Source: an uncultured Psychroserpens sp. (lineage in GTDB: Bacteria > Bacteroidota > Bacteroidia > Flavobacteriales > Flavobacteriaceae). Taken from it: DNA of 64,000 bases. Below are positions 20,344 to 47,523 of this stretch, one piece after another (position 1 is the stretch's first letter; each line of letters opens with the position of its first letter). The DNA lies in contig NZ_CANMVN010000002.1 of the NCBI RefSeq assembly GCF_947501425.1, positions 310,001 through 374,000 of the forward strand. Direction: 5' to 3'. A program made the position numbers and the translations under genes. Below the pieces are notes generated by a model, which was not told where the DNA came from, made no database searches, and worked only from the letters and a program-made list of their open reading frames with translations.

Positions 20344-20357
20344 ATGACAAATATCAT
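20344..20357 (+). promoter_or_regulatory. Fnr-like box upstream of ccoI
   Basis: aTGAC-AAAT-ATCAt, centre 20350.5. A -7-like element GACTTTTG (20380-20387) starts exactly 29.5 bases past the centre, as at the four other boxes. No matching -7 exists on the opposite strand at that spacing, so it points to ccoI rather than to autoregulation. Confidence 0.8.
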
Positions 20358-20379
20358 ATTTTGTTCGCACTTCTTTTGT

Positions 20380-20387
20380 GACTTTTG
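20380..20387 (+). promoter_or_regulatory. Predicted -7 element of the ccoI promoter
   Basis: GACTTTTG, seven of eight to TAnnTTTG. The untranslated leader to the ATG at 20414 would be about 20 bases, which argues against the GTG start at 20378 that overlaps the element. Confidence 0.65.
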
Positions 20388-20413
20388 TTACAGGTATAAA
20401 TGAGCAAATAATT

Positions 20414-22792
20414 ATGGAACAAACTTCTTGTTTCCACTGTGGTGATGATTGTAGTATATCAATTATTTCCTATGATGATAAAAACTTCTGCTGTAATGGC
20501 TGTAAGACTGTTTATGAGATTTTCTCAGAAAACGACTTAACTTGTTATTACGATTTAGAAGCGTCTCCAGGTGCTGTTCCAAAAGAAATTCAAGGTAAAT
20601 ATGACTTTTTATCTCAGGAGAATATTATTGAAAAATTAACCGAATTTAACGATGGCAACACACAAATTGCTACGCTTTATATTCCTCATATTCATTGTAG
20701 CTCCTGCATATGGATTCTTGAAAATCTCAACAAATTAAATGCTGCAATTACCTCATCTCAGGTTAACTTCGGAAAGAAAACTGTTCGGGTCACTTACAAT
20801 TCTAATGCGTATTCATTAAAGGATGTCGTGCTGCTTTTAAGTGCTATTGGTTACGAACCTTATATCTCACTGGACGACTTTAAAACAGGCAAGCAAGATG
20901 TGAACAGACAACTCATATATAAACTGGGTATTGCTGGTTTTGCCTTCGGAAATGTGATGTTCTTGTCATTTCCTGAGTATTTTGAAGTTGGAGAATTCTG
21001 GTTAGAAAAATACAAACACCTTTTTAGATGGATCATGTTTGCGTTTTCATTACCTGTGGTTTTTTATGCAGGTCAGGATTATTTCATTTCAGCTTACAAA
21101 GGACTGCGTTCAAAACTATTAAATATTGATGTCCCAATAGCATTAGGTATTGCGGTGTTATTCATAAGGAGTACTGTAGAAATTATTTTTGATCTGGGTT
21201 CTGGCTTTTTTGATAGCCTGACAGGATTGATCTTCTTCTTACTTCTCGGTAAATTCTTCCAGCAAAAAACCTATACCTTCTTATCATTTGAACGCGATTA
21301 TAAATCCTATTTTCCAATTGCTGTCACTAAAATAAACACCACTGGTGAGGAAACTCCAATTCAGGTATATGATATCAAAAAAGGAGACCGACTCTTAATC
21401 AGAAATGAAGAACTGATTCCTGTTGATGGTATATTAATTAACGGAAAAGCAAGAATCGATTATAGTTTCGTAACAGGAGAATCAGAAACTGTAAGTAAAG
21501 TGTCTGGAGACAAACTCTTTGCTGGAGGCAAACAAACTTCAGGTGTAATAGAAATGGAAGCTATCAAATCTGTAGAACAAAGTTACCTCACTCAATTGTG
21601 GAGTAATGATGTGTTTAGTAAAAACAAAGAAGACAGTTTTACAACCTTGACCAACACCATAAGCAAACGATTTACTATTGCTGTTTTAAGTATTGCAGTA
21701 ATTGCCACAACATTTTGGTTATTTACCGATGCTTCAAAAGCAATGAATGTATTTACAGCTGTATTGATTATTGCTTGTCCGTGTGCTATTGCTTTGTCTG
21801 CTCCTTTTACCTTCGGAAATTTGCTGCGTATCTTCGGAAAGTTAAAATTCTATGTAAAAAATGCTGGTGTTATTGAGCAATTGGCTGCTATCAATACGAT
21901 TATCTTCGATAAAACCGGGACCATAACATCAAATAAAAAGAGTACAGCAAACTATGAAGGTGAAACTCTAACTGTTTCCGAAGAAACCCTCTTAAAGAAT
22001 ACACTTCGGGGTTCAAACCATCCTCTAAGCAGAACATTGTATGATATTTTAGATGCTCATAATATCATTTCGCTCAATCATTTTGAAGAGCATTTGGGTA
22101 AGGGAATTGAAGCTAGTCATAATACAGATCATATCAAAATAGGATCAGCAAGCTTTGTTGGAGCTACAGAAACCTCATTATTAAACACAACTGTTCACAT
22201 CAGTACTAATGATAAGTACAAAGGCAAATTTACATTCTATAACTCTTATAGAAAGGGCTTATCAAAATTATTCAATACACTAAAAAAACAATACGACCTT
22301 GTTATTCTTTCTGGAGATAATGAAGGTGAGTATGAGAACCTTAAAAAACTATTGCCTTCAAAAACCAAATTGATCTTTAATCAAAAGCCTGATGACAAAT
22401 TAGAATACATAAAATATCATCAAACTGAAGGTGCTAAGGTTTTGATGATTGGCGACGGACTTAATGATGCAGGAGCTTTGGCACAAAGTAATGTTGGCAT
22501 TGCATTGTCAGAAAATGTAAATGTATTTTCTCCAGCTTGTGATGCAATTTTAGATGCTTCAAAATTTAATACGCTAGATCAGTTTATAAGTGCATCAAAA
22601 AGTGCTATAAGCATTATAAAATGGAGTTTTATTCTGTCATTTATTTATAACATTATTGGCCTCTATTTTGCTGTAACCGGACAATTATCACCAGTGATAG
22701 CAGCTATTCTGATGCCTTTAAGTTCAATTAGCATTGTAGTTTTTACAACCATAGCTACCAATTTTTTAGGTAGAAAATTGAACACAAAATAA
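20414..22792 (+). CDS. ccoI: CcoI/FixI-type copper-translocating P-type ATPase
   Basis: A P1B-type ATPase of about 792 residues that exports copper for cbb3 oxidase and NosZ maturation rather than for detoxification. The N-terminus has a cysteine-rich metal-binding region (CFHCGDDC, CCNGCK, residues 6-30) and a heavy-metal-associated domain with C95-SS-C98. Eight predicted helices include the CPC motif (IACPCAIALSAPF, about 453). The phosphorylation motif DKTGT is at about 499, and the ATP-binding HP motif is SNHPLSR. I use ATG 20414: the upstream GTG frame lies inside the promoter. It sits between the Fnr-like gene and the cco operon, as in other Bacteroidota. Confidence 0.93.
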   Translation: MEQTSCFHCGDDCSISIISYDDKNFCCNGCKTVYEIFSENDLTCYYDLEASPGAVPKEIQGKYDFLSQENIIEKLTEFNDGNTQIATLYIPHIHCSSCIWILENLNKLNAAITSSQVNFGKKTVRVTYNSNAYSLKDVVLLLSAIGYEPYISLDDFKTGKQDVNRQLIYKLGIAGFAFGNVMFLSFPEYFEVGEFWLEKYKHLFRWIMFAFSLPVVFYAGQDYFISAYKGLRSKLLNIDVPIALGIAVLFIRSTVEIIFDLGSGFFDSLTGLIFFLLLGKFFQQKTYTFLSFERDYKSYFPIAVTKINTTGEETPIQVYDIKKGDRLLIRNEELIPVDGILINGKARIDYSFVTGESETVSKVSGDKLFAGGKQTSGVIEMEAIKSVEQSYLTQLWSNDVFSKNKEDSFTTLTNTISKRFTIAVLSIAVIATTFWLFTDASKAMNVFTAVLIIACPCAIALSAPFTFGNLLRIFGKLKFYVKNAGVIEQLAAINTIIFDKTGTITSNKKSTANYEGETLTVSEETLLKNTLRGSNHPLSRTLYDILDAHNIISLNHFEEHLGKGIEASHNTDHIKIGSASFVGATETSLLNTTVHISTNDKYKGKFTFYNSYRKGLSKLFNTLKKQYDLVILSGDNEGEYENLKKLLPSKTKLIFNQKPDDKLEYIKYHQTEGAKVLMIGDGLNDAGALAQSNVGIALSENVNVFSPACDAILDASKFNTLDQFISASKSAISIIKWSFILSFIYNIIGLYFAVTGQLSPVIAAILMPLSSISIVVFTTIATNFLGRKLNTK

Positions 22793-22836
22793 TATGATGT
22801 ACAAAAGACTAAAAAAAGAAAATTATTTAATCAAAC

Positions 22837-22850
22837 ATGACATAAATCAT
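22837..22850 (+). promoter_or_regulatory. Fnr-like box upstream of the cco operon
   Basis: aTGAC-ATAA-ATCAt, centre 22843.5, within a longer near-perfect dyad AAACATGA-N6-TCATGTTT (22833-22854). The -7 element TAATTTTG begins 29.5 bases from the centre. Confidence 0.85.
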
Positions 22851-22872
22851 GTTTTAAGAACGTGTTCAAACG

Positions 22873-22880
22873 TAATTTTG
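22873..22880 (+). promoter_or_regulatory. -7 element of the cco operon promoter
   Basis: TAATTTTG is an exact match to TAnnTTTG, 20 bases before the ccoS ATG (22901). It is the same octamer as at the nos and hemN promoters. Confidence 0.8.
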
Positions 22881-22900
22881 AACCATAACTTCAAATAGGT

Positions 22901-23089
22901 ATGAGTGTTATATATATTTTATTGAGTATCAGCATTATTGTTGCTATTGTATTTTTTATTGCGTTTATAACTGCAGTAAGACAAGGGCAGTTTGATGATA
23001 GCTATACACCATCTGTTAGAATGCTTTTCGAGGACGAACTCGTTAAAGAGCAACCAAAACCATCTGTTAAAATCAAAAAGACTAATTAA
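22901..23089 (+). CDS. ccoS: cbb3-type oxidase assembly protein CcoS
   Basis: A 62-residue protein with one N-terminal membrane helix (IYILLSISIIVAIVFFIAFI) and the CcoS pattern AVRQGQFDDSYTPSVRML. CcoS is required for cofactor insertion, including copper and haem b, into cbb3 oxidase. It is first in the operon, six bases before ccoN, with an Fnr-like box upstream. Confidence 0.93.
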   Translation: MSVIYILLSISIIVAIVFFIAFITAVRQGQFDDSYTPSVRMLFEDELVKEQPKPSVKIKKTN

Positions 23090-23095
23090 ATTATT

Positions 23096-25285
23096 ATGGA
23101 AGTTCAACAGTTTCATTACGATAACAAAATCGTTAAAAATTTCCTCTATGCAACCATGCTTTGGGGAGTTGTAGGAATGCTAGTAGGATTAATCCTCGCA
23201 TTCATGTTTTTATTCCCAAATATGACCGACGGTATTTCGTGGTTGAGTTTTGGTCGATTAAGACCATTACACACTAATGCTGTAATCTTTGCATTTGTGG
23301 GAAATGCCATTTTTGCTGGTGTGTACTATTCTACACAACGTTTATTAAAAGCAAGAATGTTTAATGATACACTAAGTAAAATCAATTTCTGGGGTTGGCA
23401 ATTAATCATAGTTGGTGCTGCAGTAACACTTCCTTTGGGTTATACAACATCAAAAGAATATGCAGAACTGGAATGGCCTTTTGATATTGCCATTGCAGTA
23501 ATCTGGGTTGTTTTTGGTTGGAACTTGATTGGAACTATATTAAAAAGAAGACAACGTCATTTATATGTGGCTATTTGGTTTTACATCGCCACATTTGTAA
23601 CCGTTGCTGTATTACACATATTTAATAGTTTGGCATTACCTGTAAGCGGACTTAAGAGTTACTCAGTTTATGCAGGTGTTCAGGATGCTTTGGTACAATG
23701 GTGGTATGGTCATAATGCAGTAGCATTTTTCTTAACAACACCATTCTTAGGATTAATGTATTACTTCGTTCCTAAAGCTGCAAATAGACCAGTATATTCC
23801 TATAGATTATCTATTGTTCACTTCTGGTCATTAATCTTTATATACATCTGGGCAGGACCTCACCACTTATTGTATACAGCACTTCCTGGTTGGGCGCAAA
23901 GTTTAGGTGTTGCCTTTTCTGTGATGCTTATTATGCCATCTTGGGGAGGTATGATCAACGGACTCCTTACCCTTCGTGGTGCTTGGGATAAAGTGAGAAC
24001 AGATCCTGTTTTAAAATTTATGGTTGTTGCAATTACTGGTTATGGTATGGCAACCTTTGAAGGACCAATGCTATCTCTGAAAAGTATGAATGCCATGGCG
24101 CATTTTACAGATTGGATTATTGCACACGTTCACGTTGGAGCATTAGCATGGAATGGTTTCCTAACCTTCGGTATGATCTATTATTTAGTTCCGAAGTTGT
24201 TCAAAACAAAATTACACTCTGTAGCACTTGCAAATTTACACTTCTGGATTGGCACCCTTGGAATTATTTTCTACGCACTACCAATGTATGTAGCAGGTTT
24301 TCAACAATGGGCTATGTGGAAGCAATTTAATCCAGATGGAACATTAGTATATGGTAACTTCTTAGAAACCGTAACTGAAATTATGCCGATGTACTGGATG
24401 CGTGCTATTGGAGGTACATTATACATTACTGGTATGCTCATCTTAGTGGTAAATATTATCATTACAATTAGAAATGGTAGTAAAGTTACCGATGAATTAG
24501 CTGAAGCTGCTGCACTTAAACGTGTATCAAAAAGACGTGTTGCTGGTGAAGGATGGCATACATGGTTAGAACGTAAGCCAATCAAATTGACCATATACGC
24601 TACAGTAGCTATCTTAATTGGTGGTATGGTACAAATTATTCCAACACTACTAGTAAAATCTAATATTCCAACCATTACAAGTGTACAACCTTACACACCT
24701 CTTGAACTTGAAGGTAGAGATATCTATATCAGAGAAGGATGTGTTGGCTGTCACTCTCAAATGGTGAGACCATTTAGAAATGAGGTTGAACGTTATGGCG
24801 AATATTCAAAAGCAGGAGAATTTGTTTATGATCATCCATTCCTCTGGGGAAGTAAGAGAACTGGACCAGATCTACATCGTGTAGGTGGTAAATATTCAGA
24901 CAACTGGCATTTAAGTCATATGTACAATCCACAAAGCACCTCATCTGGTTCCATTATGCCAGCTTACCAATGGTTAATTAGAAATGAATTGGATAAATCG
25001 CAAACCGAAGCTAAGATGAAAGCCATGGTATCATTAGGTGTTCCTTATTCCGATGAAGATATTGCCAATGCGCAACAAAGCATGTTAGAACAAGGGACTC
25101 AGATAGAACAGAATTTATACTCAGATCCAGATTTCGTGGCCTCTTATGAAGCTGATAAAGAAGCTGGTGGTGAAGCATTTGTAGAAATGCGAAATAGAGA
25201 AATTGTAGCTATAATAGCGTATTTACAACGTCTTGGTACTGATATTAAGGTAGAAGATCAGGAAGTAACAACAACTCAAAACTAA
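23096..25285 (+). CDS. ccoNO: cbb3-type cytochrome c oxidase, fused subunits I and II (CcoN-CcoO)
   Basis: A 729-residue fusion. The N-terminal 480 residues form the multi-helix catalytic subunit, with His ligands in LRPLHTNAVIFAF, GHNAVAFFLT, AGPHHLLYTALPGWAQ and DWIIAHVHVGALAWNG for haems b and b3 and CuB. The C-terminal part (about 530-729) is a CcoO-like mono-haem cytochrome: CVGCHSQMVRP at about 549, a distal Met region SGSIMPAYQWL, and the GPDLHRVGGKYSD block. Proteobacteria encode these as two genes; the fusion is usual in Bacteroidota. It reduces O2 at very low concentration and pumps protons in the cytoplasmic membrane. Confidence 0.95.
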   Translation: MEVQQFHYDNKIVKNFLYATMLWGVVGMLVGLILAFMFLFPNMTDGISWLSFGRLRPLHTNAVIFAFVGNAIFAGVYYSTQRLLKARMFNDTLSKINFWGWQLIIVGAAVTLPLGYTTSKEYAELEWPFDIAIAVIWVVFGWNLIGTILKRRQRHLYVAIWFYIATFVTVAVLHIFNSLALPVSGLKSYSVYAGVQDALVQWWYGHNAVAFFLTTPFLGLMYYFVPKAANRPVYSYRLSIVHFWSLIFIYIWAGPHHLLYTALPGWAQSLGVAFSVMLIMPSWGGMINGLLTLRGAWDKVRTDPVLKFMVVAITGYGMATFEGPMLSLKSMNAMAHFTDWIIAHVHVGALAWNGFLTFGMIYYLVPKLFKTKLHSVALANLHFWIGTLGIIFYALPMYVAGFQQWAMWKQFNPDGTLVYGNFLETVTEIMPMYWMRAIGGTLYITGMLILVVNIIITIRNGSKVTDELAEAAALKRVSKRRVAGEGWHTWLERKPIKLTIYATVAILIGGMVQIIPTLLVKSNIPTITSVQPYTPLELEGRDIYIREGCVGCHSQMVRPFRNEVERYGEYSKAGEFVYDHPFLWGSKRTGPDLHRVGGKYSDNWHLSHMYNPQSTSSGSIMPAYQWLIRNELDKSQTEAKMKAMVSLGVPYSDEDIANAQQSMLEQGTQIEQNLYSDPDFVASYEADKEAGGEAFVEMRNREIVAIIAYLQRLGTDIKVEDQEVTTTQN

Positions 25286-25291
25286 TTAATC

Positions 25292-25477
25292 ATGTTAAAA
25301 TTCGTAAAAAATCATATGGAAAGCATCACAGGCATAGAAATCTATCCTTTGATCTCCCTAATCATATTTTTCAGTTTTTTCGTCATCTTATTTTGGTGGG
25401 TAATTACTGCAAAAAAAGACTACATCACCAAGGTGAGTAATATTCCGTTAGACAACCAAAATCCATCAGAATTATGA
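25292..25477 (+). CDS. ccoQ: cbb3-type oxidase small subunit CcoQ-like
   Basis: A 61-residue protein with one helix (YPLISLIIFFSFFVILFWWVITA) and the charged tail KKDYITKVSNIPLD typical of CcoQ in this phylum. It stabilises the oxidase complex. Its stop overlaps the ccoP start by four bases. Confidence 0.88.
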   Translation: MLKFVKNHMESITGIEIYPLISLIIFFSFFVILFWWVITAKKDYITKVSNIPLDNQNPSEL

Positions 25478-26424: not shown

Positions 26425-26428
26425 ACAC

Positions 26429-27853: not shown

Positions 27854-27866
27854 AATATAGATTGTT

Positions 27867-28313: not shown

Positions 28314-28322
28314 CCTTAAACT

Positions 28323-29075: not shown

Positions 29076-30551
29076 ATGATGTCTAACAACTTAATTAATA
29101 ATCATAAACTACAATTATCAAAAGAAGACATGAAAGCCTATGGTTATCAAGTTATTGATGCCATTGTAGAACATTATGACACAAAGCACAATAAAAAACC
29201 TGTAGCTTCAGGATCTCGTGAAGAGATGGATACACTATTCAATATAGATGTCCCAAATTCTGGAACTAATTTTCAGGATGTATTCAGTTTTGTTGTCAAC
29301 AAAGTATTACCAAATAGTACTATTGTTTCTCATCCAAAAGCCTATTCATTTGTACCTGGACCTAGTAACTATGTTAGTGTTATGGCAGATACATTAGCAA
29401 CTGGTTTTAATATTTTTTCAGGAGGCTGGGCTGCTTCTCCTGCAGCTGCAGAACTTGAAATAGTAACCATGAACTGGTTGTTGAAGCTATTCAAATTTCC
29501 AACAAAAAAAGGCGGTGGAATTTTTACTAGTGGTGGTTCTATGGCTAATCTTACAGCTCTGGTAACAGCAAGAAGACAACATTGTGGTGATGATTTTTCA
29601 AAAGCAATCATTTACATGTCAGACCAAACACATTCTTCAAATATAAAAGCAATAAGAGTACTTGGTTTTAAGAAAGAACAGGTTAGAATCATCCCAACAG
29701 ATCTAGAATTCAAAATGGCAATTAACAAACTCAAAAACGCCATAGCAAAAGACAAATTGGAAGGATATCACCCCTTTTGCATCATTGCATCTGCTGGCAC
29801 GACTAATACCGGAAGTGTTGATCCGTTGAATGATATCTCAAAAATTTGCAAAGCTGAAAACCTATGGTTTCATGTTGATGGTGCATATGGTGGAGCTGCC
29901 ATACTATCTAAAACAGGAAAAACATATCTAAAAGGTATAGAAAAAGCCGACTCTCTTACTATTGACCCTCATAAATGGTTATTCCAACCTTATGAAATGG
30001 GATGCCTTCTTGTACGTGATCATCGATGGCTAAAACAAACATTTAGTGAAAAACCAGAATACCTCAGAGATATTGAAGGAAACACATCAGAAATCAACTT
30101 TTATGATCATGGCATTCAATTGACTAGACGTTTTAGAGCACTTAAGTTTTACATGTCTATAAAAACCTTTGGCTTGAATGCTTTTAAATCTGCAGTCACC
30201 TACTCCATCGATCTTGCTGAGCAGGTAGAAGCGCATCTGAGAAAAAGTTCACGATGGGAAGTTATTTCTCCTGCAACGTTGGCTGTTATCAATTTTAGAT
30301 ATAACCCAATTAACAAAGCATTTGATGAAAAACGATTAGATAGTCTTAATCAGGATATATCAAAAAAAATAGTCGCTTCCAGAGAAGCTTTACTCGTCAC
30401 CACTGTGTTACAAAACCAAGTAGTATTGCGTATGTGTTTAATCAATCCAAGAACTACATTTAAAGATGTTCTTGAGACCTTAACGCTTTGTGAATCTATA
30501 GCTGATGAGATTGTGAAGAGTAACTCAGTATCAAAAAACCAGTTTTGCTGA
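29076..30551 (+). CDS. PLP-dependent group II decarboxylase
   Basis: 491 residues, cytoplasmic. It matches aromatic-L-amino-acid/glutamate-type decarboxylases: FVPGPSNYVSVMADTLATG, GGIFTSGGSMANLTALVTAR, CIIASAGTTNTGSVDPL, and FHVDGAYGGAAIL, with the PLP Lys in TIDPHKWLFQPYE. Substrate cannot be deduced (tyrosine, tryptophan, DOPA, glutamate and 2,4-diaminobutyrate enzymes share these motifs). It is 51 bases downstream of the cco operon without an obvious terminator between, so read-through is possible. Its last codons overlap the Fnr-like box of the next gene. Confidence 0.88.
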   Translation: MMSNNLINNHKLQLSKEDMKAYGYQVIDAIVEHYDTKHNKKPVASGSREEMDTLFNIDVPNSGTNFQDVFSFVVNKVLPNSTIVSHPKAYSFVPGPSNYVSVMADTLATGFNIFSGGWAASPAAAELEIVTMNWLLKLFKFPTKKGGGIFTSGGSMANLTALVTARRQHCGDDFSKAIIYMSDQTHSSNIKAIRVLGFKKEQVRIIPTDLEFKMAINKLKNAIAKDKLEGYHPFCIIASAGTTNTGSVDPLNDISKICKAENLWFHVDGAYGGAAILSKTGKTYLKGIEKADSLTIDPHKWLFQPYEMGCLLVRDHRWLKQTFSEKPEYLRDIEGNTSEINFYDHGIQLTRRFRALKFYMSIKTFGLNAFKSAVTYSIDLAEQVEAHLRKSSRWEVISPATLAVINFRYNPINKAFDEKRLDSLNQDISKKIVASREALLVTTVLQNQVVLRMCLINPRTTFKDVLETLTLCESIADEIVKSNSVSKNQFC

Positions 30552-30560
30552 TATTTGTCA
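30549..30560 (+). promoter_or_regulatory. Fnr-like box upstream of the CBS-domain gene
   Basis: cTGAT-ATTT-GTCAt, centre 30554.5, overlapping the decarboxylase stop codon. The -7 element TAACTTTA starts 29.5 bases downstream of the centre. Confidence 0.72.
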
Positions 30561-30583: not shown

Positions 30584-30591
30584 TAACTTTA
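30584..30591 (+). promoter_or_regulatory. -7 element of the CBS-gene promoter
   Basis: TAACTTTA, seven of eight to TAnnTTTG, 24 bases before the ATG at 30616. Confidence 0.65.
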
Positions 30592-30615: not shown

Positions 30616-31035
30616 ATGGATAAGAGTACTCCAATTTCAGAAATAATGACCACTGATGTTATCACGTTAAACCGTTCTGATAATTTAGATACAGCAGAAA
30701 TACTATTTAAGAAACATAAAATACGTCATATTCCAGTTGTTAGTGGACATGAAATTTTAGGCATGTTAAGCTATACTGATTTATTAAGAATTAGTTTTGC
30801 AGATGCCGTAGATGAGCATGAGCAGGATGTAGACACTGTGGTTTATAATATGTTTACGATTGAACAAGTGATGGCTAAAAACCTCATAAGTGTCAATTCA
30901 GACTCAACAATAAAAGAAGTTGCTGAAATACTATCAAAAAGAGAATTTCACGCATTACCTGTAGTAGATAACAACTCATTGGTTGGTATTGTGACTACTA
31001 CAGATTTAATAAATTTCTTGATTGAACAGTTTTAA
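30616..31035 (+). CDS. Tandem CBS-domain protein
   Basis: 139 residues made almost entirely of two CBS domains, each starting with an I/V-M-T or V-M-A motif (EIMTTDVITLNRSD and QVMAKNLISVNSDS) and ending with SYTDLLR and TTTDLINFL. Stand-alone CBS pairs bind adenine nucleotides or other ligands and act as sensors or inhibitory subunits. No enzyme domain is fused. It has its own promoter with an Fnr-like box and a terminator, so it is a single-gene unit predicted to be induced at low oxygen. Partner unknown. Confidence 0.92.
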   Translation: MDKSTPISEIMTTDVITLNRSDNLDTAEILFKKHKIRHIPVVSGHEILGMLSYTDLLRISFADAVDEHEQDVDTVVYNMFTIEQVMAKNLISVNSDSTIKEVAEILSKREFHALPVVDNNSLVGIVTTTDLINFLIEQF

Positions 31036-31154: not shown

Positions 31155-31589
31155 ATGTTTTCCAAAGCCTGCGAATATGCCATTAGAGCATCTATTTTTA
31201 TTGCCAAAAACTCCTTTGAATCCAGACGTGTAAGTCCGAAGAAAATTTCCGAAGAAATAAATTCTCCACAGGCGTTTACAGCTAAGATCTTACAAGCATT
31301 AGTTAAGTATAATATTGTCAATTCTGTAAAGGGTGCCTATGGTGGTTTTGAGATTAATAAAGAAGATATTTCAAAGATTAAACTACTACAAATAGTTCAA
31401 GCCATTGATGGAGAAAAGACTTTTAAAGGCTGTGCATTAGGTTTAGAAGCTTGCAACGAAGAACACCCTTGTCCGCTACATGATAAATTCAAGGATGTGA
31501 GAAATGATCTAAAAGACATGCTTGAACATACGAGTTTAGAAGAATTAGCTTTAGATTTGAAAAGTGGATCAGCATTTTTAAAAGTATAA
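31155..31589 (+). CDS. Rrf2 family regulator with NsrR-like cysteines
   Basis: 144 residues: N-terminal winged HTH (FSKACEYAIRASIFIAKNS, then ISEEINSPQAFTAKILQALVKYNIVNSVKGAYGGF) and three cysteines C93, C100 and C106 in the effector region (GCALGLEACNEEHPCPLH). NsrR, IscR and RsrR use three such residues to hold an iron-sulfur cluster sensing NO, Fe-S status or redox. It lies between the cco and nos clusters, so sensing of NO or cluster state is plausible. It is followed 31 bases later by deoD, probably without a functional link. Confidence 0.9.
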   Translation: MFSKACEYAIRASIFIAKNSFESRRVSPKKISEEINSPQAFTAKILQALVKYNIVNSVKGAYGGFEINKEDISKIKLLQIVQAIDGEKTFKGCALGLEACNEEHPCPLHDKFKDVRNDLKDMLEHTSLEELALDLKSGSAFLKV

Positions 31590-36661: not shown

Positions 36662-38617
36662 TTATTCATCATCTAATGTGAATTTTAAAGGGGTATTTGA
36701 ATTAGCTGCAGATACTCTAATATATCCCTGCATCTCCTGGTGTAATGCAGAACAGAAATCTGTACAGTAGAATGGCCATACACCTTCACGCTTTGGTTCC
36801 CAAACAATTGTTTTGGTTTGACCTGGCATCACAAGTATTTCAGATGTGTTAGCGCCAATGATTGAGAATCCATGAGGCACATCAAAATCTTGTTCCAAAT
36901 TAGTCATGTGGAGGTAGACTTTATCTCCAACTTTAACACCTTCAATATTATCAGGTGAGAAATGACTACGAATCATAGTCATACTAATATGAACTTCATT
37001 TCCATTACGCGTTACTTTGGCTTCACTTTCGCTCTTAGCAACATAAGGGTGTTCATTTTCAGATAATTCATAATACTTTTTACTCTTATCTTTAATGATA
37101 TCTGCTCGTATTCCAGCTGCGTAATGTGGTTCACCATGTGTAGGAAAATCAGAAAGTAATTCCATTTTTTCTCCTGAAATATCATATAGCTGAGCCGAGT
37201 GCTCTAACTCTGGTCCTGTTGGCAAATAGCGATCTTTTGTGATCTTATTCATTGCGACCATATATTTACCAAATGGTTTACGTGAATTACCTCCAGGAAT
37301 CATCAAGTGACCAACCGAATAGAATGTAGGTTGTCTATCAACGACTTCCCATGTTCCTAATTTCCATTTTACAACTTCAGAAGAAATAAAGAATGTGGTA
37401 TAGGCATTTCCTAGTCCGTCAAACTCAGTATGTAAAGGGCCTAAACCTGGTTGAGCAACAACACCAGCAATGGTATTTTCATAACTTAATACAGGAATTC
37501 CATAAGAATCGTCTACAAAGTCCTCTTTTTCAATCGCTGCTAATATTTTATCAAACGAATACACACTTAAGTCGGTAGATAATTTACCACTACCAACAAT
37601 ATATTCTCCAGATGGATCTACATCACAACCATGAGGTGACTTAGGAATTGGAATATAAAATACAGCACCTTTAACGTCTCTTGGATCAACAGTGATCACA
37701 CCATCTTTAATGGTTGATGTTGCTGTATGCGTTTTCTCATCATAAACATTATGAGCATATTTTCCTGCCATTTTAGTTCCGCCACCATTTTTAACGAAGT
37801 CGGCAATTTTCTGCCAGTTAACTGCTGCGATATAATCCTTATCATTCTGAGATGCATTCACTTCCATTAGTGTATTAGCTTCTTCAGTGTTATAACTTGT
37901 AAAGAAGAACCAACCATGTGATTTATTTCGTCCTGGATGGGCTAAATCGTAATTAAAACCGGGCATATTCAATTGGAATTCCAAATTCATACGACCATTG
38001 TCAGCTATACTTACAAAAGATAAAGGTCCTTTAAACTGACCTTTCATTTCACTAATTGGCATATCACGTTGCGGATTAGGAACTGCAAAACGGGTACCCG
38101 CTACTATAAATTCTGTATTCTCAGTAACAAAAGAAGAAGCATGATTCCCTGCACTATTAGGAAGCTCTATGATCTCCTCAGTTTCAAAGGTTTCAAGACT
38201 TACACGAGCAATTCTTGGTGTATTGTTTTCATTAATAAAAATCCATCGACCATCAAGTTCCCCATTAGTCTGTGAGATATCTGGGTGATGAGCATCACCC
38301 CATGGTACAAATCCGAAAGAAGTATTTAACATCGGTTTGGTTTCTTCAGAATAACCATAACCTGAGGTAGGAAATTGTGAAAACACAGGAATCTCTTTTA
38401 ACATTCGTCCACTAGGAAGACCAGCAACAGTAATATTACCACTATATCCTCCTGAAAAAAATGCGTAATATTCATCATGTTCTCCAGGTGCTACATATAC
38501 TTTTTCAGCTTTGCTGGAGTTCATTGCTCCAGTATTGCCCGAATTGTTATTATTACCGCAACTTGTTATTAGAACAAAAGCGATAATACTAAACATATAT
38601 TTACTTATTGTATTCAT
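36662..38617 (-). CDS. nosZ: Nitrous oxide reductase, clade II, Sec-dependent lipoprotein
   Basis: 651 residues. The N-terminus is a Sec lipoprotein signal (VLITSC, Cys about 20) rather than the twin-arginine signal of clade I NosZ. The seven-bladed propeller carries the His ligands of CuZ in GDAHHPDI, NSAGNHASSF, KSPHGCDVDP, GPLHTEFDG, ELEHSAQL and GEPHYAAG. The C-terminal cupredoxin has the CuA site FYCTDFCSALHQEM (about 615-630) and DFDVPHGFSI. It reduces N2O to N2, ending denitrification; no nitrite or nitric oxide reductase is visible in the window. Third gene of the operon. Confidence 0.96.
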   Translation of the reverse strand: MNTISKYMFSIIAFVLITSCGNNNNSGNTGAMNSSKAEKVYVAPGEHDEYYAFFSGGYSGNITVAGLPSGRMLKEIPVFSQFPTSGYGYSEETKPMLNTSFGFVPWGDAHHPDISQTNGELDGRWIFINENNTPRIARVSLETFETEEIIELPNSAGNHASSFVTENTEFIVAGTRFAVPNPQRDMPISEMKGQFKGPLSFVSIADNGRMNLEFQLNMPGFNYDLAHPGRNKSHGWFFFTSYNTEEANTLMEVNASQNDKDYIAAVNWQKIADFVKNGGGTKMAGKYAHNVYDEKTHTATSTIKDGVITVDPRDVKGAVFYIPIPKSPHGCDVDPSGEYIVGSGKLSTDLSVYSFDKILAAIEKEDFVDDSYGIPVLSYENTIAGVVAQPGLGPLHTEFDGLGNAYTTFFISSEVVKWKLGTWEVVDRQPTFYSVGHLMIPGGNSRKPFGKYMVAMNKITKDRYLPTGPELEHSAQLYDISGEKMELLSDFPTHGEPHYAAGIRADIIKDKSKKYYELSENEHPYVAKSESEAKVTRNGNEVHISMTMIRSHFSPDNIEGVKVGDKVYLHMTNLEQDFDVPHGFSIIGANTSEILVMPGQTKTIVWEPKREGVWPFYCTDFCSALHQEMQGYIRVSAANSNTPLKFTLDDE

Positions 38618-39230: not shown

Positions 39231-39239
39231 AATGTGGTT

Positions 39240-39737
39240 TTATAATGTTCTAAAATATTCTAATACTGCTCTGGCTTCTTTTTCGGTTAGATTTTGATTA
39301 GCCATTGGAGAGCCATTAAACTCGATTAGCAATTCTTTTGCTAATGGATCATTTTTTACCATGCCCTCTGGATCTAATATCATATTCATAATCCACTCAG
39401 GTGAACGTCGTTCAAGAAGTCCTTGTGGTGACGGACCAATAAACTTTTTGTTTGGTCTGTGACATGCTGTACACATCTTCTTAAAAATCTCTTCTCCCTC
39501 TGCAGCCATAGCTGTATCAATTTCACCTAAAGAAATGGATGAAATTGGTCCAACACCCTTATTGGTTAGATCTATCTTTTTTGATGCAGGAGTAGCTTTT
39601 TCTTTTGCTGATTCTGTCTTAACTGTAACCTCTTTCTTTCCATAAGAAATCGGCTCTTTTTTTTGTTCTTCTTTGCCTCCACAACTTATTAGTAGTGTTA
39701 CAAATAATACGGTCAATAGTTTTAGTGTTATCTTCAT
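39240..39737 (-). CDS. Lipid-anchored mono-haem cytochrome c, first gene of the nos operon
   Basis: 165 residues; lipobox LLISC (Cys19), a Lys/Glu-rich linker, then a class I cytochrome c domain with C89-TA-C92-H and a Met ligand in FNGSPMANQNL. It is the likely electron donor to NosZ, since no NosR or NosGH genes are present. An Fnr-like box with a perfect -7 element lies upstream; the predicted leader is only about 13 bases. Confidence 0.92.
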   Translation of the reverse strand: MKITLKLLTVLFVTLLISCGGKEEQKKEPISYGKKEVTVKTESAKEKATPASKKIDLTNKGVGPISSISLGEIDTAMAAEGEEIFKKMCTACHRPNKKFIGPSPQGLLERRSPEWIMNMILDPEGMVKNDPLAKELLIEFNGSPMANQNLTEKEARAVLEYFRTL

Positions 39738-39756
39738 AATGAAATTGATTTGTTAA

Positions 39757-39764
39757 CAAAATTA
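39757..39764 (-). promoter_or_regulatory. -7 element of the nos operon promoter
   Basis: On the minus strand it reads TAATTTTG, an exact TAnnTTTG, 19 bases before the cytochrome c ATG (39737). Confidence 0.82.
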
Positions 39765-39786
39765 GTGACTAAAAAGACCAATTATT

Positions 39787-39800
39787 ATGATATATATCAT
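39787..39800 (-). promoter_or_regulatory. Fnr-like box upstream of the nos operon
   Basis: aTGAT-ATAT-ATCAt, centre 39793.5, a perfect dyad; the nos -7 element begins 29.5 bases from the centre on the minus strand. No TAnnTTTG at that spacing on the plus strand, so it points to nos rather than the gene to the right. Confidence 0.85.
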
Positions 39801-39928
39801 ATTTAGGATAAAAATATCTTAATTAATTTTTGAATAAGGCTTTAGATGATTTTTGTTAAAGCATTGCTCACTTTTTACTTCGCAATATCTTTTGCTTATC
39901 TTTAATGCAACTAAACCAAACTGTAATG

Positions 39929-43138: not shown

Positions 43139-43158
43139 CAACACTAAAACAAATCATT

Positions 43159-45114
43159 ATGAGAACAAAAATTTTAGGACTGTGTATCGCTGTTCTGATG
43201 GTGTCCTGTAAAAAAGACACTAAAGAACAAGCCAATGCAGAAAGGGAGATTCAGCAATACACTATCGATCAGTTCATGGATAACGAAGCCGTTGGAGGTG
43301 GGAGCTTTTCGGCTGATAACAGCAATTTATTAGTGTCTAGTAACCGTTCTGGTATTTACAATGTGTATACCATTCCTGCGGAAGGTGGCGATATGACTCC
43401 AATTACAAAATCAGATAGCACATCTATTGTTGCACAATCTTATTTTCCAAATGATAATAGAATGCTTTTAAGCGCTGATGGAAATGGCGATGAAATTGAT
43501 CATCTGTTTGTAAGAGAACTGGATGGAATGATTAAAGATATCACACCTGATAAAGGTGCGAAATCTAACTTCTATGGCTGGTCTGAAGATGATAAATCAT
43601 TGTATTACGGGTCAAATAAACGCGACCCTCGTTATTTTGATGTCTATAAAATGTCTATTGATGACTATACTTCGGAAATGATCTATCAGAATAATGACGG
43701 ACTTGATTTTGGAGGTATGACCAGTGACGAACGCTATTTTGCCCTTTCAAAGAATTTAAATACTAACGATAGTGATCTTTTTCTTTATGATGTAAAGACA
43801 AAAGACATGACGAAAGTGAATGACTCACAGAGTGGTAATTCGGCACAGGATTTTTCTAAAGACAATACTACATTTTATTATACCACAGATAACGGAAATG
43901 AATTTTCATACTTAATGTCTTACGACTTGGCAACAAAAGAGAAAAAGAAAGTCGTTGAAAAATCTTGGGATATCATGGGAAGCGGTTTTACTTCTGAAGG
44001 GAACTATATGGTAGTATATGTCAACGAAGATGGGAAAAATGCCATAGAAGTTCTAAATGCTAAAACAATGACACCTATTGACCTTCCCGATTTTAAAGGC
44101 AAAAGCATAACCAGTGTTGGGTTTAGTGATGATGAAAAATGGATGCGTATGTATGTAGGTGGTTCTAACTCACCTTCTGATTTGTACACCTATAATTTGG
44201 AAACTAAAGAACAACATAAGCTTACCGATGTTCTCAATGATGAGATCAACGCTGATGACCTTGTAACTGCAAAAGTGATTCGATTTAAATCGTTTGATGG
44301 TGTAGAGATTCCAGCTATTTATTATTTACCTCACCAAGCATCTGCCGAAAACAAAGTACCTGCAATGGTATGGGTTCATGGTGGTCCTGGAGGACAAACA
44401 CGTCAAGGGTTTAGCTCTTTAATTCAGTATATGGTCAATCATGGTTATGCTGTTCTTGCTGTTAATAATCGCGGAAGTAGTGGCTACGGAAAAACGTTTT
44501 ATCAAATGGACGATCTTAACCATGGAGAAAAAGATTTACAAGATTGTGTAGAGGGTAAAAACTGGTTAGCAACTCAAGCTGAAATTGATGGAGACAAAAT
44601 AGGTATTATAGGTGGATCTTATGGTGGTTACATGACTATGGCAGCACTTACCTACACTCCTGAAGAGTTTGATGTTGGTGTCAATTTATTTGGTGTAACC
44701 AATTGGATACGTACATTGAAAAGTATTCCTCCGTATTGGGAATCATTCAGGGAATCACTTTACTTAGAACTAGGTGATCCATTTTCGGCAGATTCTGTTC
44801 GTTTAAAACGTATCTCACCATTGTTCCATACAGATAAAGTAACTAAACCACTTATTGTACTTCAAGGTGCTCAGGACCCAAGAGTATTACAAGTAGAATC
44901 TGATGAGATAGTAGCAGGTGTTAGAAAAAATAACGTACCTGTAGAATATGTCTTATTTGAAGATGAAGGACACGGATTTGTAAAAAAGGAAAATCAGATT
45001 GAAGCTTACAGCCGAATTCTTAAATTTTTAGATAAACATCTCAAAAAAGAAAACATGCCAATTGATGGGGAAACAGAATCTAAAGAAATTGAAGTAGAAT
45101 ATGAAGATCAATAA
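43159..45114 (+). CDS. S9 family prolyl-oligopeptidase-like lipoprotein
   Basis: 651 residues; lipobox MVSC (Cys14). A beta-propeller cap (about 40-380: TSDERYFALSKNLNTNDSDLFLYD, WSEDDKSLYYGSNKRDPRYFDVY) precedes an alpha/beta hydrolase domain. The catalytic Ser lies in IGGSYGGYMTMAA (about 487), the Asp in LQGAQDPRV and the His in EDEGHGFVKK. Predicted to cleave short peptides at the cell envelope. Twenty bases after the propeller protein, likely the same operon. Confidence 0.92.
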   Translation: MRTKILGLCIAVLMVSCKKDTKEQANAEREIQQYTIDQFMDNEAVGGGSFSADNSNLLVSSNRSGIYNVYTIPAEGGDMTPITKSDSTSIVAQSYFPNDNRMLLSADGNGDEIDHLFVRELDGMIKDITPDKGAKSNFYGWSEDDKSLYYGSNKRDPRYFDVYKMSIDDYTSEMIYQNNDGLDFGGMTSDERYFALSKNLNTNDSDLFLYDVKTKDMTKVNDSQSGNSAQDFSKDNTTFYYTTDNGNEFSYLMSYDLATKEKKKVVEKSWDIMGSGFTSEGNYMVVYVNEDGKNAIEVLNAKTMTPIDLPDFKGKSITSVGFSDDEKWMRMYVGGSNSPSDLYTYNLETKEQHKLTDVLNDEINADDLVTAKVIRFKSFDGVEIPAIYYLPHQASAENKVPAMVWVHGGPGGQTRQGFSSLIQYMVNHGYAVLAVNNRGSSGYGKTFYQMDDLNHGEKDLQDCVEGKNWLATQAEIDGDKIGIIGGSYGGYMTMAALTYTPEEFDVGVNLFGVTNWIRTLKSIPPYWESFRESLYLELGDPFSADSVRLKRISPLFHTDKVTKPLIVLQGAQDPRVLQVESDEIVAGVRKNNVPVEYVLFEDEGHGFVKKENQIEAYSRILKFLDKHLKKENMPIDGETESKEIEVEYEDQ

Positions 45115-45134
45115 GTAATCTTTCTAATTGAAAT

Positions 45135-45169
45135 AAAAAAAGCTTGAGCATTAGACTCAAGCTTTTTTT
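45135..45169. terminator. Strong bidirectional terminator
   Basis: AAAAAAAGCTTGAG-type 13-14 bp stem, perfectly paired with CTCAAGCTTTTTTT around a 7-base loop (45149-45155). It separates the S9 peptidase gene from the convergent UspA gene and serves both. Confidence 0.93.
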
Positions 45170-45190
45170 ATTATATATATTAAAATGATA

Positions 45191-46012
45191 CTAGATCTTA
45201 AATGTCATTACAGGAATTGTGGCATGATTGGCCACATCTTCAGACACACTTCCAGAGAAGAAATGCGCTAATCCTTTTCTTCCATGAGTAGGAACAGCAA
45301 TAAGATCGGCTCCTAGAAGATTAGATGAATTTAAAATCCCTTTTTCAACCGTATAATCAGACGTGTAATGCACATCATTCAATTTATCTAAATTACCATC
45401 TGCTTTCTTTAAAAAGTTAGCCACTGTAGTTTCCATTTCTGTAGAACTTCTAAATCCTTCACCTGGAACATTAACATGAATCAGTTTGACATTGTCAAAT
45501 AATTGACGTGCTTTTAGGTAAGGCTCCACCATTTCTTCCGAAAAATCACTGGCAAAAGTGACTGTTTCAAAATTTAAATTTGTTGGCTTCTGCTTCACAA
45601 CCAAAACTGGAATCTCAGAATGTCTCACAACACGTTCAGTGTTTGAACCTACGAATATTTCGGATAAACCACTAGAACCATGAGAACCCATAACAATCAT
45701 ATCTGCATTCTGCTCTTCAGCAACTTCAGCAACTTCACTAAATACTTTAAAGTGTTTTACAATTGGAGTGACGTTTACCCCTTCTAAAAAATCTTTAGCT
45801 AAAAATTCATCAAACTTCTGTTCGGCTAGTTTTAGAAAGAAAACTACCTTTTCATTATGAGCATTTGCAGAATCTGTTACACTTCCTCTATCTAGGTCTA
45901 ACATATGTAATGCAATTAATTCAGCATTATTCTTTTTTGCTAGAATTGCTGCTGTTTCTAGAGCGTATTCAGAGAATTCAGAGAAATCTATTGGTACAAT
46001 GATCTTATTCAT
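45191..46012 (-). CDS. Universal stress protein, two UspA domains
   Basis: 273 residues with tandem Usp domains. Domain 1 ends in the ATP-binding pattern GSHGSSGLSEIFVGSNTE (G-x2-G-x9-GS); domain 2 has PTHGRKGLAHFFSGSVSE of the same pattern. ATP-binding Usps help survival under energy or oxidative stress. It lies downstream of hemN on the same strand; the 83-base gap holds a dyad, so it may have its own promoter. Confidence 0.92.
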   Translation of the reverse strand: MNKIIVPIDFSEFSEYALETAAILAKKNNAELIALHMLDLDRGSVTDSANAHNEKVVFFLKLAEQKFDEFLAKDFLEGVNVTPIVKHFKVFSEVAEVAEEQNADMIVMGSHGSSGLSEIFVGSNTERVVRHSEIPVLVVKQKPTNLNFETVTFASDFSEEMVEPYLKARQLFDNVKLIHVNVPGEGFRSSTEMETTVANFLKKADGNLDKLNDVHYTSDYTVEKGILNSSNLLGADLIAVPTHGRKGLAHFFSGSVSEDVANHATIPVMTFKI

Positions 46013-46064
46013 GATTTTAGTTTTTTAGTTTTAAGTCCGTTAAATTACAAGTTTTGATTTAGTA

Positions 46065-46080
46065 TCGAAAACATTTTCGA
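46065..46080. promoter_or_regulatory. Dyad TCGAAAA-ca-TTTTCGA between hemN and the UspA gene
   Basis: Seven-base arms with a two-base spacer, flanked by a second inverted pair TGATTT (46055-46060) and AAATCA (46083-46088). No T-run follows in the leftward direction, so it looks more like an operator for the UspA gene than a terminator. Confidence 0.45.
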
Positions 46081-46095
46081 CCAAATCACAAAATT

Positions 46096-47460
46096 TTACA
46101 CAGTCATTGAAAATAATCGTGTACTGGGTTGTTTGCGTTGAAGTAATACATCAAAGGCCATACACACATTCCTAACGTATGGCTGTCCCTTTGGTGTGAC
46201 TTTAATGCCATGGGTTTGAAATGTCACCAAACCATCAGCTTCCATCTCTCTCAGTTTAAAAACGATATCTTTAAATTCTTCAATGTATAACGACTGATCA
46301 TTCCAGCTTGTTTCAAAGTGACACATTAAATTCAAAATATGTTTCCTGACAATAAGATCTTCAGAATTTAAAATATGCCCACGATATACAGGGATGATAT
46401 CTTGATCAACTAAATGGTAGTATTCTTCTATACCTTTCACATTTTGTGCAAACCCATACCAGCTATCACTAATAGAAGACACACCTAAGCCAATCATAGC
46501 TTGAGTTTTTGATGCTGTATAACCCATAAAATTTCTATGCAACTCATTAGCTTGCATGGCTTTGAAAAGTGAATCACCCTCTAATGCAAAATGATCCATT
46601 CCAATTTCATGATACCCTGCTTTACTCAGTAGTTTCTTTCCCAATTCGTATTGTGCTCGCTTAGATGCTCCTGAAGGAAGATCCTCATCCTTGTAACCAC
46701 GCTGTCCATTTCCTTTAAGCCATGGCACATGTGCATAACTGTAAAAAGCAATACGATCTGGCATTAACGCCTTAGTAAGTTCTACAGTTTTGGCGACATG
46801 TTCCTCGGTTTGAAATGGTAGACCAAAAATAATATCGTGACCAATAGAAGTATATCCAATCTCCCGAGCAGTGAGTGTGGCTTGTTTTACATTCTCAAAA
46901 GGCTGAATACGATTGATTGCTTTTTGAACAGCTTCATTATAATCCTGAACGCCAAAACTCACACGAGTAAATCCAAGATTATATAGCGTTTCAAGATGAG
47001 CTCGGGTGGTATTATTTGGGTGACCTTCAAAGCTAAACTCGTAATCTTTTGCAAGATTAGCTCGTCGTAAAATACCTTTGATCAAAAATTCTAAATTCTC
47101 TGGAGAGAAAAAAGTTGGAGTTCCACCTCCAAGGTGAAGCTCTTTTATTATTGGTCGTCCTTTTAAAAGTTTACAATACAGACTCCACTCTTTCAATACT
47201 GCTCTAACATAGGGCTCTTCAACATCATGTCGTTTTGTGATACGTTTATTACATCCACAAAACGTACACATACGCTCACAAAATGGCAAATGAATATAAA
47301 GGCTTATACCTTCGGAAGCATTGCTTTCTTCAAAGGATTTAGATAGCGACGCTTTCCATTGTTTTAATGAAAACGATGCATCATCCCAATAAGGAACTGT
47401 TGGATAAGATGTATAACGTGGTCCTGCCACATTATATTTATTGACTAATGAACTGCACAT
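46096..47460 (-). CDS. hemN: Oxygen-independent coproporphyrinogen III oxidase
   Basis: 454 residues, radical-SAM enzyme. The cluster motif is C61-ERM-C65-TF-C68, followed by GC and the HemN-specific GGGTPTFF, FEGHPNNTT and FGVQDYN. It converts coproporphyrinogen III to protoporphyrinogen IX without oxygen, so it supplies haem for cbb3 oxidase and cytochromes at low oxygen. Its promoter carries the Fnr-like box described at 47506. The length fits HemN rather than the shorter HemW. Confidence 0.95.
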   Translation of the reverse strand: MCSSLVNKYNVAGPRYTSYPTVPYWDDASFSLKQWKASLSKSFEESNASEGISLYIHLPFCERMCTFCGCNKRITKRHDVEEPYVRAVLKEWSLYCKLLKGRPIIKELHLGGGTPTFFSPENLEFLIKGILRRANLAKDYEFSFEGHPNNTTRAHLETLYNLGFTRVSFGVQDYNEAVQKAINRIQPFENVKQATLTAREIGYTSIGHDIIFGLPFQTEEHVAKTVELTKALMPDRIAFYSYAHVPWLKGNGQRGYKDEDLPSGASKRAQYELGKKLLSKAGYHEIGMDHFALEGDSLFKAMQANELHRNFMGYTASKTQAMIGLGVSSISDSWYGFAQNVKGIEEYYHLVDQDIIPVYRGHILNSEDLIVRKHILNLMCHFETSWNDQSLYIEEFKDIVFKLREMEADGLVTFQTHGIKVTPKGQPYVRNVCMAFDVLLQRKQPSTRLFSMTV

Positions 47461-47477
47461 ACCTGATTAATTTTCAC

Positions 47478-47485
47478 CAAAATTA
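47478..47485 (-). promoter_or_regulatory. -7 element of the hemN promoter
   Basis: TAATTTTG on the minus strand, exact TAnnTTTG, 17 bases before the hemN ATG. Confidence 0.82.
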
Positions 47486-47505
47486 CTCGCTTTTGTTTGG
47501 ATAAA

Positions 47506-47523
47506 ATATGACTTAAGTCATAT
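47506..47523 (-). promoter_or_regulatory. Fnr-like box upstream of hemN
   Basis: ATATGAC-TTAA-GTCATAT is an 18-base perfect palindrome with core TGAC-N4-GTCA, centre 47514.5. The hemN -7 starts 29.5 bases away. The rightward gene at 47547 has no -7 at this spacing. Confidence 0.85.

Follow-up and report, generated by a model that had tools for sequence, protein, structure and literature searches.

Five promoters in the window (the whole stretch of 64,000 nucleotides from an uncultured Psychroserpens sp. analyzed here) carry a Crp/Fnr-type palindrome at one identical distance from the -7 element: in all five, 29.5 bases separate the dyad centre from the first base of the -7 octamer. The non-random feature is this spacing, not the frequency of the box. 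The spacing itself, its enrichment across the genome, its conservation in relatives and its co-occurrence with a regulator gene are visible in the sequences compared. We are fairly confident that all five depend on the Bacteroidota primary sigma factor and are activated in the class II manner, by a Crp/Fnr dimer that would bind at low oxygen. The elements are the following.

19629 to 20306, minus strand: Crp/Fnr-family regulator gene (Fnr-like, 225 aa) with cNMP_binding and HTH_Crp_2 domains
20328 to 20335, minus strand: predicted -7 element of fnr, TATTTTTA, predicted start 20323, with a gap of 9 bases to the shared box
20345 to 20356, unstranded: shared palindrome TGACAAATATCA, putative class II site for ccoI and predicted autorepression site for fnr
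20380 to 20387, plus strand: ccoI -7 element GACTTTTG, predicted start 20392
20414 to 22792, plus strand: ccoI-like heavy-metal P-type ATPase, named ccoI from its gene position, with ATG 20414 chosen as start
22838 to 22849, unstranded: box of the ccoS/ccoNO operon, TGACATAAATCA
22873 to 22880, plus strand: ccoS -7 element TAATTTTG, predicted start 22885
22901 to 23089, plus strand: ccoS (FixS family)
30549 to 30560, unstranded: box of the CBS-domain gene, TGATATTTGTCA
30584 to 30591, plus strand: CBS gene -7 element TAACTTTA, predicted start 30596
30616 to 31035, plus strand: CBS-domain protein
39788 to 39799, unstranded: box of the nos operon, TGATATATATCA
39757 to 39764, minus strand: nos -7 element TAATTTTG, predicted start 39752
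39240 to 39737, minus strand: cytochrome c gene, first of the nos operon (nosZ at 36662-38617)
47509 to 47520, unstranded: hemN box TGACTTAAGTCA
47478 to 47485, minus strand: hemN -7 element TAATTTTG, predicted start 47473
46096 to 47460, minus strand: hemN, oxygen-independent coproporphyrinogen III oxidase (TIGR00538, above cut-off)

A first-pass annotation of this DNA had reported boxes at these five positions, all of which are present, and an identical spacing, which holds for each of them. It had also assigned a TAnnTTTG -7 element to every promoter. This is exact in ccoS, nos and hemN, whereas GACTTTTG of ccoI and TAACTTTA of the CBS gene are each one off among the six specified bases. 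The strict octamer is also too narrow for the orthologs: at gap 23 (23 bases between box and octamer) the first base of the ccoI element is T in only 2 of 75 loci and another base in the other 73, and 17 of 20 CBS elements have a final A. The distances from the -7 element to the ATG are 26 (ccoI, to ATG 20414), 20 (ccoS), 24 (CBS), 19 (nos) and 17 bases (hemN), in line with the range of 17-26 given earlier. A conserved block in the ccoI leader, AGGTATAAATGAGCAAA, might have encoded a leader peptide; we rejected this, as the ATG is absent in several relatives.

Taken alone, TGAYN4RTCA is not enriched in the window (10 matches for 6.26 expected; at least as many in 13 of 100 shuffles), and its remaining five matches (19001, 38286, 42877, 52871, 62285) show at most three of the six -7 bases at 29.5 bases on either strand. 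Across the whole genome, the exact pattern box-N23-TAnnTTTG has 10 matches and the reversed control none. Over gaps of 9 to 37 bases there are 18 box/TAnnTTTG pairs, 10 of them at gap 23 and 8 across the other 28 gaps (binomial probability of the peak about 8e-11); the reversed control has 9 pairs in total and 0 at gap 23. A relaxed scan at this spacing, with the flanking T and at most one mismatch, gives 44 sites versus 2 in the control. Hence, the genome-wide scan that the annotation had proposed as a check finds the spacing to be non-random, and its view that equal distances exceed chance is borne out.

The commonest departure among the relaxed sites is TTTG to TTTA, the change of the last G to A being the sole one in 17 of the 35 one-mismatch sites; the -7 element of the genome-wide set is better rendered as TAnnTTT[G/A]. 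Nine of the 35 have their mismatch inside the 12-base box, a class that we treated as background because six of these nine lie within long reading frames. Two sites with a -7 mismatch (C3:309047 and C8:241241) also lie within reading frames. We judge that about 30 of the 44 sites are real. When TAnnTTTR elements in the window are sorted by their gap from the box, four are found at gap 23, one at 9 and one at 25.

The comparison with related genomes, also proposed earlier, recovers the spacing at the orthologs of ccoI, ccoS, hemN, nos and the CBS gene. The box between fnr and ccoI, conserved as ATGAY-N4-RTCAT, is present in 77 of 80 loci and absent in 3; it stands at gap 23 in 75 of them and at gap 22 in the other two. 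The ccoS layout is kept in 69 of the 78 loci with enough flank, and the other 9 have no site in the flank available. Ortholog boxes are at gap 23 in 21/21 cases for hemN (30 loci), 18/19 for nos (28 loci) and 20/24 for CBS (30 loci), the box being absent from the searched stretch in 9/30, 9/28 and 6/30 loci, respectively. Altogether, 57 genomes were scanned and gave 333 matches versus 5 in the control. An Fnr ortholog, taken as a best E no higher than 3.3e-46, is present in 40 genomes, which have a mean of 7.95 sites; the 10 without any match to the Fnr query have a mean of 0.30. Same-genus genomes of similar size that lack the ortholog have 0 (G006) and 1 site (G014). One genome (G052) has an Fnr-like protein with 39% identity, and the exact site was not found in its genome scan.

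The regulator gene that the annotation had pointed out in the window is indeed Fnr-like and lies beside ccoI. Its best matches among solved structures are FNR-type regulators (e.g. 5e44, 8qto), and Cys 4, 7, 29, 53 and 106 are invariant among 81 sequences, as is the recognition-helix pair expected for TGA, Glu191/Arg195 (81/81). The role of this Glu position is described in PMC1274295, in the part considered here. FNR cysteines are matched by C4, C7 and C106, and the third canonical position is Ser13; the protein lacks the canonical set of four cysteines, and its NCBIfam Fnr score is under the cut-off (PRK11161; 103.9 vs 228 bits). It is a putative Fe-S oxygen sensor. On the fnr side of the shared palindrome, the best TAnnTTTR is at gap 9 (two ties) in 68 of the 77 orthologous loci with a box, and the palindrome is predicted to mediate fnr autorepression. 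The first-pass annotation did not have this dual role of the ccoI box.

The start-site map of Flavobacterium psychrophilum, in the parts considered, places TAnnTTTG (the sigma-A octamer) at -12 to -5 (PMC9723704), and on this ground the dyad centre would be at -41.5, in agreement with the earlier estimate of about -42. Provided that starts lie as in F. psychrophilum, this corresponds to class II activator geometry. A Crp/Fnr-family dimer, most likely the Fnr-like protein (19629-20306) at the five window promoters, would bind ATGAY-N4-RTCAT under low oxygen. Centred at -41.5, it would span the -33 region and abut RNA polymerase on TAnnTTT[G/A] at -12 to -5, and this contact would activate ccoI, the ccoS/NO operon, the CBS protein, nos and hemN. 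The ccoI palindrome falls near -28 of the fnr promoter, where the dimer would block it and give negative feedback. We infer here that the proteins bind, in which direction they regulate, that oxygen is the signal and which regulator serves which sites. Under oxygen limitation, F. psychrophilum induces cbb3 and heme genes; according to the same source, in the parts considered, its hypoxia genes respond to iron scarcity too (PMC9723704), which counts against the activator reading because a simple Fe-S activator predicts otherwise. A further caveat to this reading is that a site at -41.5 could in principle repress. The missing third cysteine, the low NCBIfam score, the outer A..T pair of the box, genome G052 and the loci that have no box likewise weigh against it.

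The annotation had seen here the promoter architecture of low-oxygen and N2O respiration. The cbb3, nos and hemN targets fit this description, but 17 of the 44 relaxed sites fall in one further cluster (C5) of stress and fermentation type, with a D-lactate-type dehydrogenase, ribonucleotide reductase, universal stress proteins and Hsp20. TAnnTTTR elements in this cluster number 14 at gap 23 and 5 in the other 60 gaps (0 to 60). The cluster encodes a receiver-cNMP-HTH_Crp fusion of 349 aa (C5:300,666-301,715; Response_reg, cNMP_binding and HTH_Crp_2) that adjoins a PAS/HisKA/HATPase histidine kinase. The same arrangement occurs in another genome (G029), down to the order of kinase, fusion, gap-23 box and universal stress protein. 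The fusion probably reads the larger C5 cluster with the same geometry, and it is a further candidate reader besides the Fnr-like protein to which the window sites had been ascribed.

A rival reading accepts the architecture but assigns the window promoters chiefly to the receiver-Crp two-component regulator, or to both proteins, the signal being relayed by the kinase instead of sensed by Fnr. The HTH recognition segments are similar by eye (TETLIR in the fusion, TESAIR in the Fnr-like protein), and G029, which has two receiver-Crp fusions and no Fnr ortholog, shares the above gene order with our genome and keeps 10 sites, including hemN and nos. However, G030, whose Fnr ortholog is its sole match to the Fnr query, keeps 6 sites, and the two sets of boxes differ. 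The centre is all A/T in 198 of 205 window-type ortholog boxes and A or G stands two bases past the box in 185 of 205 (ccoI 77/77, ccoS 52/69, hemN 19/21, nos 17/18, CBS 20/20), whereas of the 17 C5 boxes 7 have an all-A/T centre and 14 a T as second following base. The G029 centres are all A/T in 1 of 10, as if the sites had changed along with the regulator. We consider this rival reading unlikely, albeit of some weight.

It is much less probable that the fixed spacing reflects repressors overlapping promoters, such as those binding TetR-type operators. TGAC-N4-GTCA does resemble TetR-family operators, and site C6:99946 lies upstream of a TetR-family gene and C3:319503 divergent from another. 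Yet a repressor has no need of one fixed distance, the window targets are cbb3, nos and hemN, and the 10/18 peak, the co-occurrence with Fnr and the conserved weak -7 elements of ccoI and CBS fit activation better. We reject TetR operators as a general explanation; they may account for C6:99946 and C3:319503, both counted as insecure. Site C5:130936 is weak too, its gene being nearly leaderless with 5 bases from the -7 element to the ATG. Finally, the lack of enrichment of the box alone might suggest that five cases were picked out by chance from AT-rich DNA rich in TAnnTTTG near short palindromes, a possibility of negligible weight that the distribution of gaps across the genome has refuted and that is at odds with the sharp excess at a single gap in the genome, relaxed-site, ortholog and cluster counts.

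The preferred reading, that of class II activator promoters, can be extended tentatively. One low-oxygen promoter grammar of box, exactly 23 bases and TAnnTTT[G/A] may be common to the Flavobacteriales and, less clearly, to other families of the class. In it, the Fnr-like and receiver-Crp routes would recognize their own targets from the centre of the box and the second following base. Departures in the -7 element (ccoI position 1 not T, CBS position 8 A) would set activator dependence, and upon loss of Fnr the fusion would take over hemN and nos with the spacing unchanged. We find this extension plausible, if somewhat doubtful. The primary sigma factor of Bacteroidota is divergent and their activators are little studied; our results suggest that activators retained their -41.5 geometry even as the sigma recognition elements changed. 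The spacing rule lets low-oxygen, nosZ/N2O-reduction and fermentation promoters be predicted from flavobacterial sequence, and it ties oxygen to N2O reduction in flavobacteria in a way that can be tested.

In the class II FNR and CRP promoters of Escherichia coli, the activator is centred at -41.5 and overlaps the upstream promoter element, with the same 29.5 bases from its centre to the first base of the sigma element. That element is TATAAT in E. coli and TAnnTTT[G/A] here, the FNR box is TTGAT-N4-ATCAA there and ATGAY-N4-RTCAT here (outer pair T..A versus A..T), and our promoters have promoter-specific -7 departures common to related species. The Fnr-like protein shares with the FNR oxygen sensor (5e44, 8qto) the domain layout, N-terminal CxxC, beta-roll Cys and recognition-helix Glu/Arg, but the third canonical Cys is Ser13, and the invariant Cys29 comes 16 residues later. 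HcpR2 and MalR of Bacteroidota belong to the same family and phylum (PMC1274295, PMC8510549, in the parts considered), but HcpR2 has the motif GTAAC-N4-GTTAC and a predicted regulon of only hcp genes in most Bacteroides (PMC1274295). A metatranscriptome study including a Flavobacteriales MAG treats homologs from Flavobacteriales, Ignavibacteria and Saprospiraceae as MalR-like and, in a passage concerning Ignavibacteria, states that evidence for CRP/FNR factors controlling denitrification was not found in "these organisms" (PMC8510549, in the parts considered). We found no description of the present promoter architecture in the titles and abstract starts of the papers that our searches of the open-licence PMC literature listed. 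The F. psychrophilum promoter map does not describe it in the parts considered, its main text having 0 occurrences of FNR or Crp, and it supplies the position of TAnnTTTG, -12 to -5, and a hypoxia response in cbb3 and heme genes (PMC9723704).

The spacing between box and octamer follows a single rule in the window. In its five promoters (ccoI, the ccoS operon, the CBS-domain gene and, on the minus strand, the nos operon and hemN), the dyad centre of the box TGAY-N4-RTCA lies 29.5 bases from the first base of the octamer TAnnTTTG, on both strands, by script and by direct reading, as stated in the first-pass annotation. This distance leaves 23 bases between box and octamer (gap 23). The box by itself is unremarkable (10 matches in the window vs 6.26 expected), and the remaining five matches have at most 3 of the 6 octamer bases at this distance. 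The genome (3,697,590 bases, 40 contigs) contains 10 exact matches to the pattern with gap 23, and none to the reversed pattern, scanned as a control. Gaps of 9 to 37 together give 18 matches, these 10 plus 8 across the other 28 gaps, and the control gives 9 over all gaps, from which we estimate a background of about 0.3 per gap. Equal spacing by chance, already doubted in the first-pass annotation, does not account for these numbers. Among the 150 matches listed for relatives (ten of 57 genomes), at least 46 are at gap 23, 8 at gap 22 and 10 at gap 24; the first count is if anything low, since in at least one case (G056:C1:59207, in a relative's genome) a shorter gap is listed although gap 23 fits too.

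The arrangement is conserved at orthologous promoters. We analyzed the best 80 of 360 protein-search matches to the regulator, in named Flavobacteriaceae and relatives. The fnr-ccoI intergenic region has the box in 77 of these 80 loci, with a -7 element of at least 5/6 bases at gap 23 in 75 and a perfect one at gap 22 in the other 2. Upstream of ccoS, a perfect TAnnTTTG occurs at gap 23 in 69 of the 78 loci with enough flank (it was too short in 2) and no gap-23 site is present in the other 9. For the other promoters we scanned up to 320 bases upstream in relatives, window included, requiring at least 5/6 octamer bases. The box is present in 21 of 30 hemN loci (from 36 matches), always at gap 23, in 19 of 28 loci of the nos cytochrome c (from 28), 18 of them at gap 23, and in 24 of 30 CBS loci (from 37), 20 of them at gap 23. 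Related species being non-independent, these ortholog counts represent constraint and not separate events.

The consensus -7 element prevails at ccoS, hemN and nos. That of ccoI (window 20380) is conserved but non-consensus, with T as first base in 2 of the 75 gap-23 loci and in both gap-22 loci, and that of CBS ends in A in 17 of 20 orthologs. These departures may make the promoters inherently weak and so reliant on the activator. The ccoI leader also contains a AGGTATAAATGAGCAAA block (window 20392-20408), conserved position by position over the 77 loci, in which the reading frame is not consistent among loci. An Rrf2-family regulator gene (window 31155-31589) lies just 3' of the CBS gene, in the stretch that separates the cbb3 cluster from the nos cluster.

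Class II activators of E. coli are centred at -41.5. In the start-site map of F. psychrophilum, the sigma-A octamer TAnnTTTG spans -12 to -5 (PMC9723704), and taking its first T as -12 places the dyad centre at -41.5. The same paper reports that oxygen limitation strongly induces the cbb3 oxidase and induces heme biosynthesis enzymes; its main text does not mention FNR or Crp. Sequence, conservation and an independent start-site map all give good support to the class II geometry proposed in the first-pass annotation, for starts that are here predicted.

The ccoI palindrome seems to have a second, autoregulatory use, which is absent from the first-pass annotation. Towards fnr, 68 of 77 loci have their best match to TAnnTTT[A/G] at 9 bases past the box (two are ties), and the window has TATTTTTA at this place. 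A dimer on the box would occupy the space between the fnr -33 and -7 elements, such that the fnr product should repress its own gene and activate ccoI, a direction we infer from sequence.

The regulon is larger than the first-pass annotation shows. Searching the genome for the box and octamer with a T following the box and one mismatch allowed gave 44 sites vs 2 in the control. Among the 35 with one mismatch, 17 differ solely in having A for the final G of the -7 element and 4 have A for the third T in TTTG; in 9 the mismatch falls inside the 12-base box, and 6 of these are within long reading frames. The working -7 element is thus closer to TAnnTTT[G/A]. We estimate about 30 genuine promoters, a judgement and not a computed figure. 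The boxes at C6:99946 and C3:319503 lie at gap 23 next to genes of the TetR family, one at the head of an efflux-like operon and one adjoining OmpW, and could be TetR operators instead of Fnr sites.

Of the 44 sites, 17, on 15 palindromes, fall within 276-320 kb of one contig (C5), in a cluster with these features:

C5:274000-321773, cluster with 17 gap-23 sites
Downstream gene, D-2-hydroxyacid (lactate-type) dehydrogenase
Downstream gene, CBS protein
Downstream genes, small phasin-like protein (below the Pfam cut-off), then ABC1 kinase
Downstream gene, MlaE
Downstream gene, ArsC-like protein (below cut-off)
Downstream genes, several universal stress proteins
Downstream gene, Hsp20
Downstream gene, citrate-type transporter
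Two sites about 100 and 260 bases upstream of ribonucleotide reductase
Outside the cluster, PPK2 and OmpW targets

The region has 14 TAnnTTTR elements at gap 23 vs 5 at the remaining gaps between 0 and 60 combined. A -7 element stands at gap 23 on either side of two palindromes (C5:279460-279471 and C5:292454-292465), which are possible two-way class II promoters. The cluster resembles a dormancy or low-oxygen regulon.

The number of sites varies with the presence of the regulator. The 57 genomes have 333 gap-23 matches vs 5 in the control. With a best E of 3.3e-46 or lower (our own cut), 40 have an Fnr ortholog, the match beginning past the N-terminal cysteines in two. Mean matches are 7.95 in these 40, 1.71 in 7 genomes with weaker family members only and 0.30 in 10 without any match to the Fnr query, with genome size and relatedness as confounders between the groups. 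Two genomes of the same genus and similar size lacking the ortholog have 0 (G006) and 1 (G014). Another, G052, encodes an Fnr-like protein (39% identity) yet has 0, and one of the 7 intermediate genomes, G029, has 10. In a phylum-wide sample of 118 genomes, the 11 members of the family, the window's own genome among them, gave 93 matches vs 2 in the control. Two genomes from the order gave 6 and 10 vs 0, another 16 from the class gave 51 vs 3, and the 89 others gave 35 vs 3. Hence, the pattern thins outside the class without vanishing.

A second regulator, missed in the first-pass annotation, is probable. Four HTH_Crp_2 proteins of the genome are above the family cut-off, and one, a 349-aa receiver-cNMP-HTH_Crp fusion, is encoded in the C5 cluster beside a PAS histidine kinase. 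Kinase, fusion, gap-23 box and universal stress protein follow one another in this order both here and in G029. The latter genome has two receiver-Crp fusions and no Fnr ortholog, and its hemN and nos promoters retain boxes at gap 23, with G/C in the box centre. Among 205 window-type ortholog boxes, 198 have an all-A/T centre and 185 have A or G two positions past the box, where ccoS is the loosest (C in 13 and T in 4 of 69). An all-A/T centre occurs in 7 of 17 distinct C5 boxes, 14 of which have T two positions past the box, and in 1 of 10 G029 boxes. This suggests two readers of one common geometry, with a putative assignment of sites to each, and a possible regulator swap at hemN and nos in G029.

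In one study, the CRP/FNR homologs of Flavobacteriales, Ignavibacteria and Saprospiraceae were treated as MalR-like, and a passage on Ignavibacteria states that there is no evidence of denitrification regulation by such factors in "these organisms" (PMC8510549). The motif given for Bacteroides HcpR2 differs from the present box (PMC1274295), and the term class II is unused in the available text on the Porphyromonas gingivalis Crp homolog (PMC12040651). We found no description of such a promoter architecture in titles and abstract openings of open-licence PMC papers.

The regulator combines a cNMP-binding domain with a Crp-type HTH, and among solved structures it matches FNR-type regulators best. 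Its recognition segment keeps Glu191 and Arg195, which fit a TGA half-site given the correlation described in PMC1274295. Three cysteines (Cys4, Cys7 and Cys106) align with those of FNR, whereas Ser13 stands in place of the third canonical one; Cys29 is invariant in 81 sequences. It is thus an Fnr-like protein, set apart from FNR proper, that probably works like FNR, and the whole represents a known mechanism, on promoters of an unusual kind.
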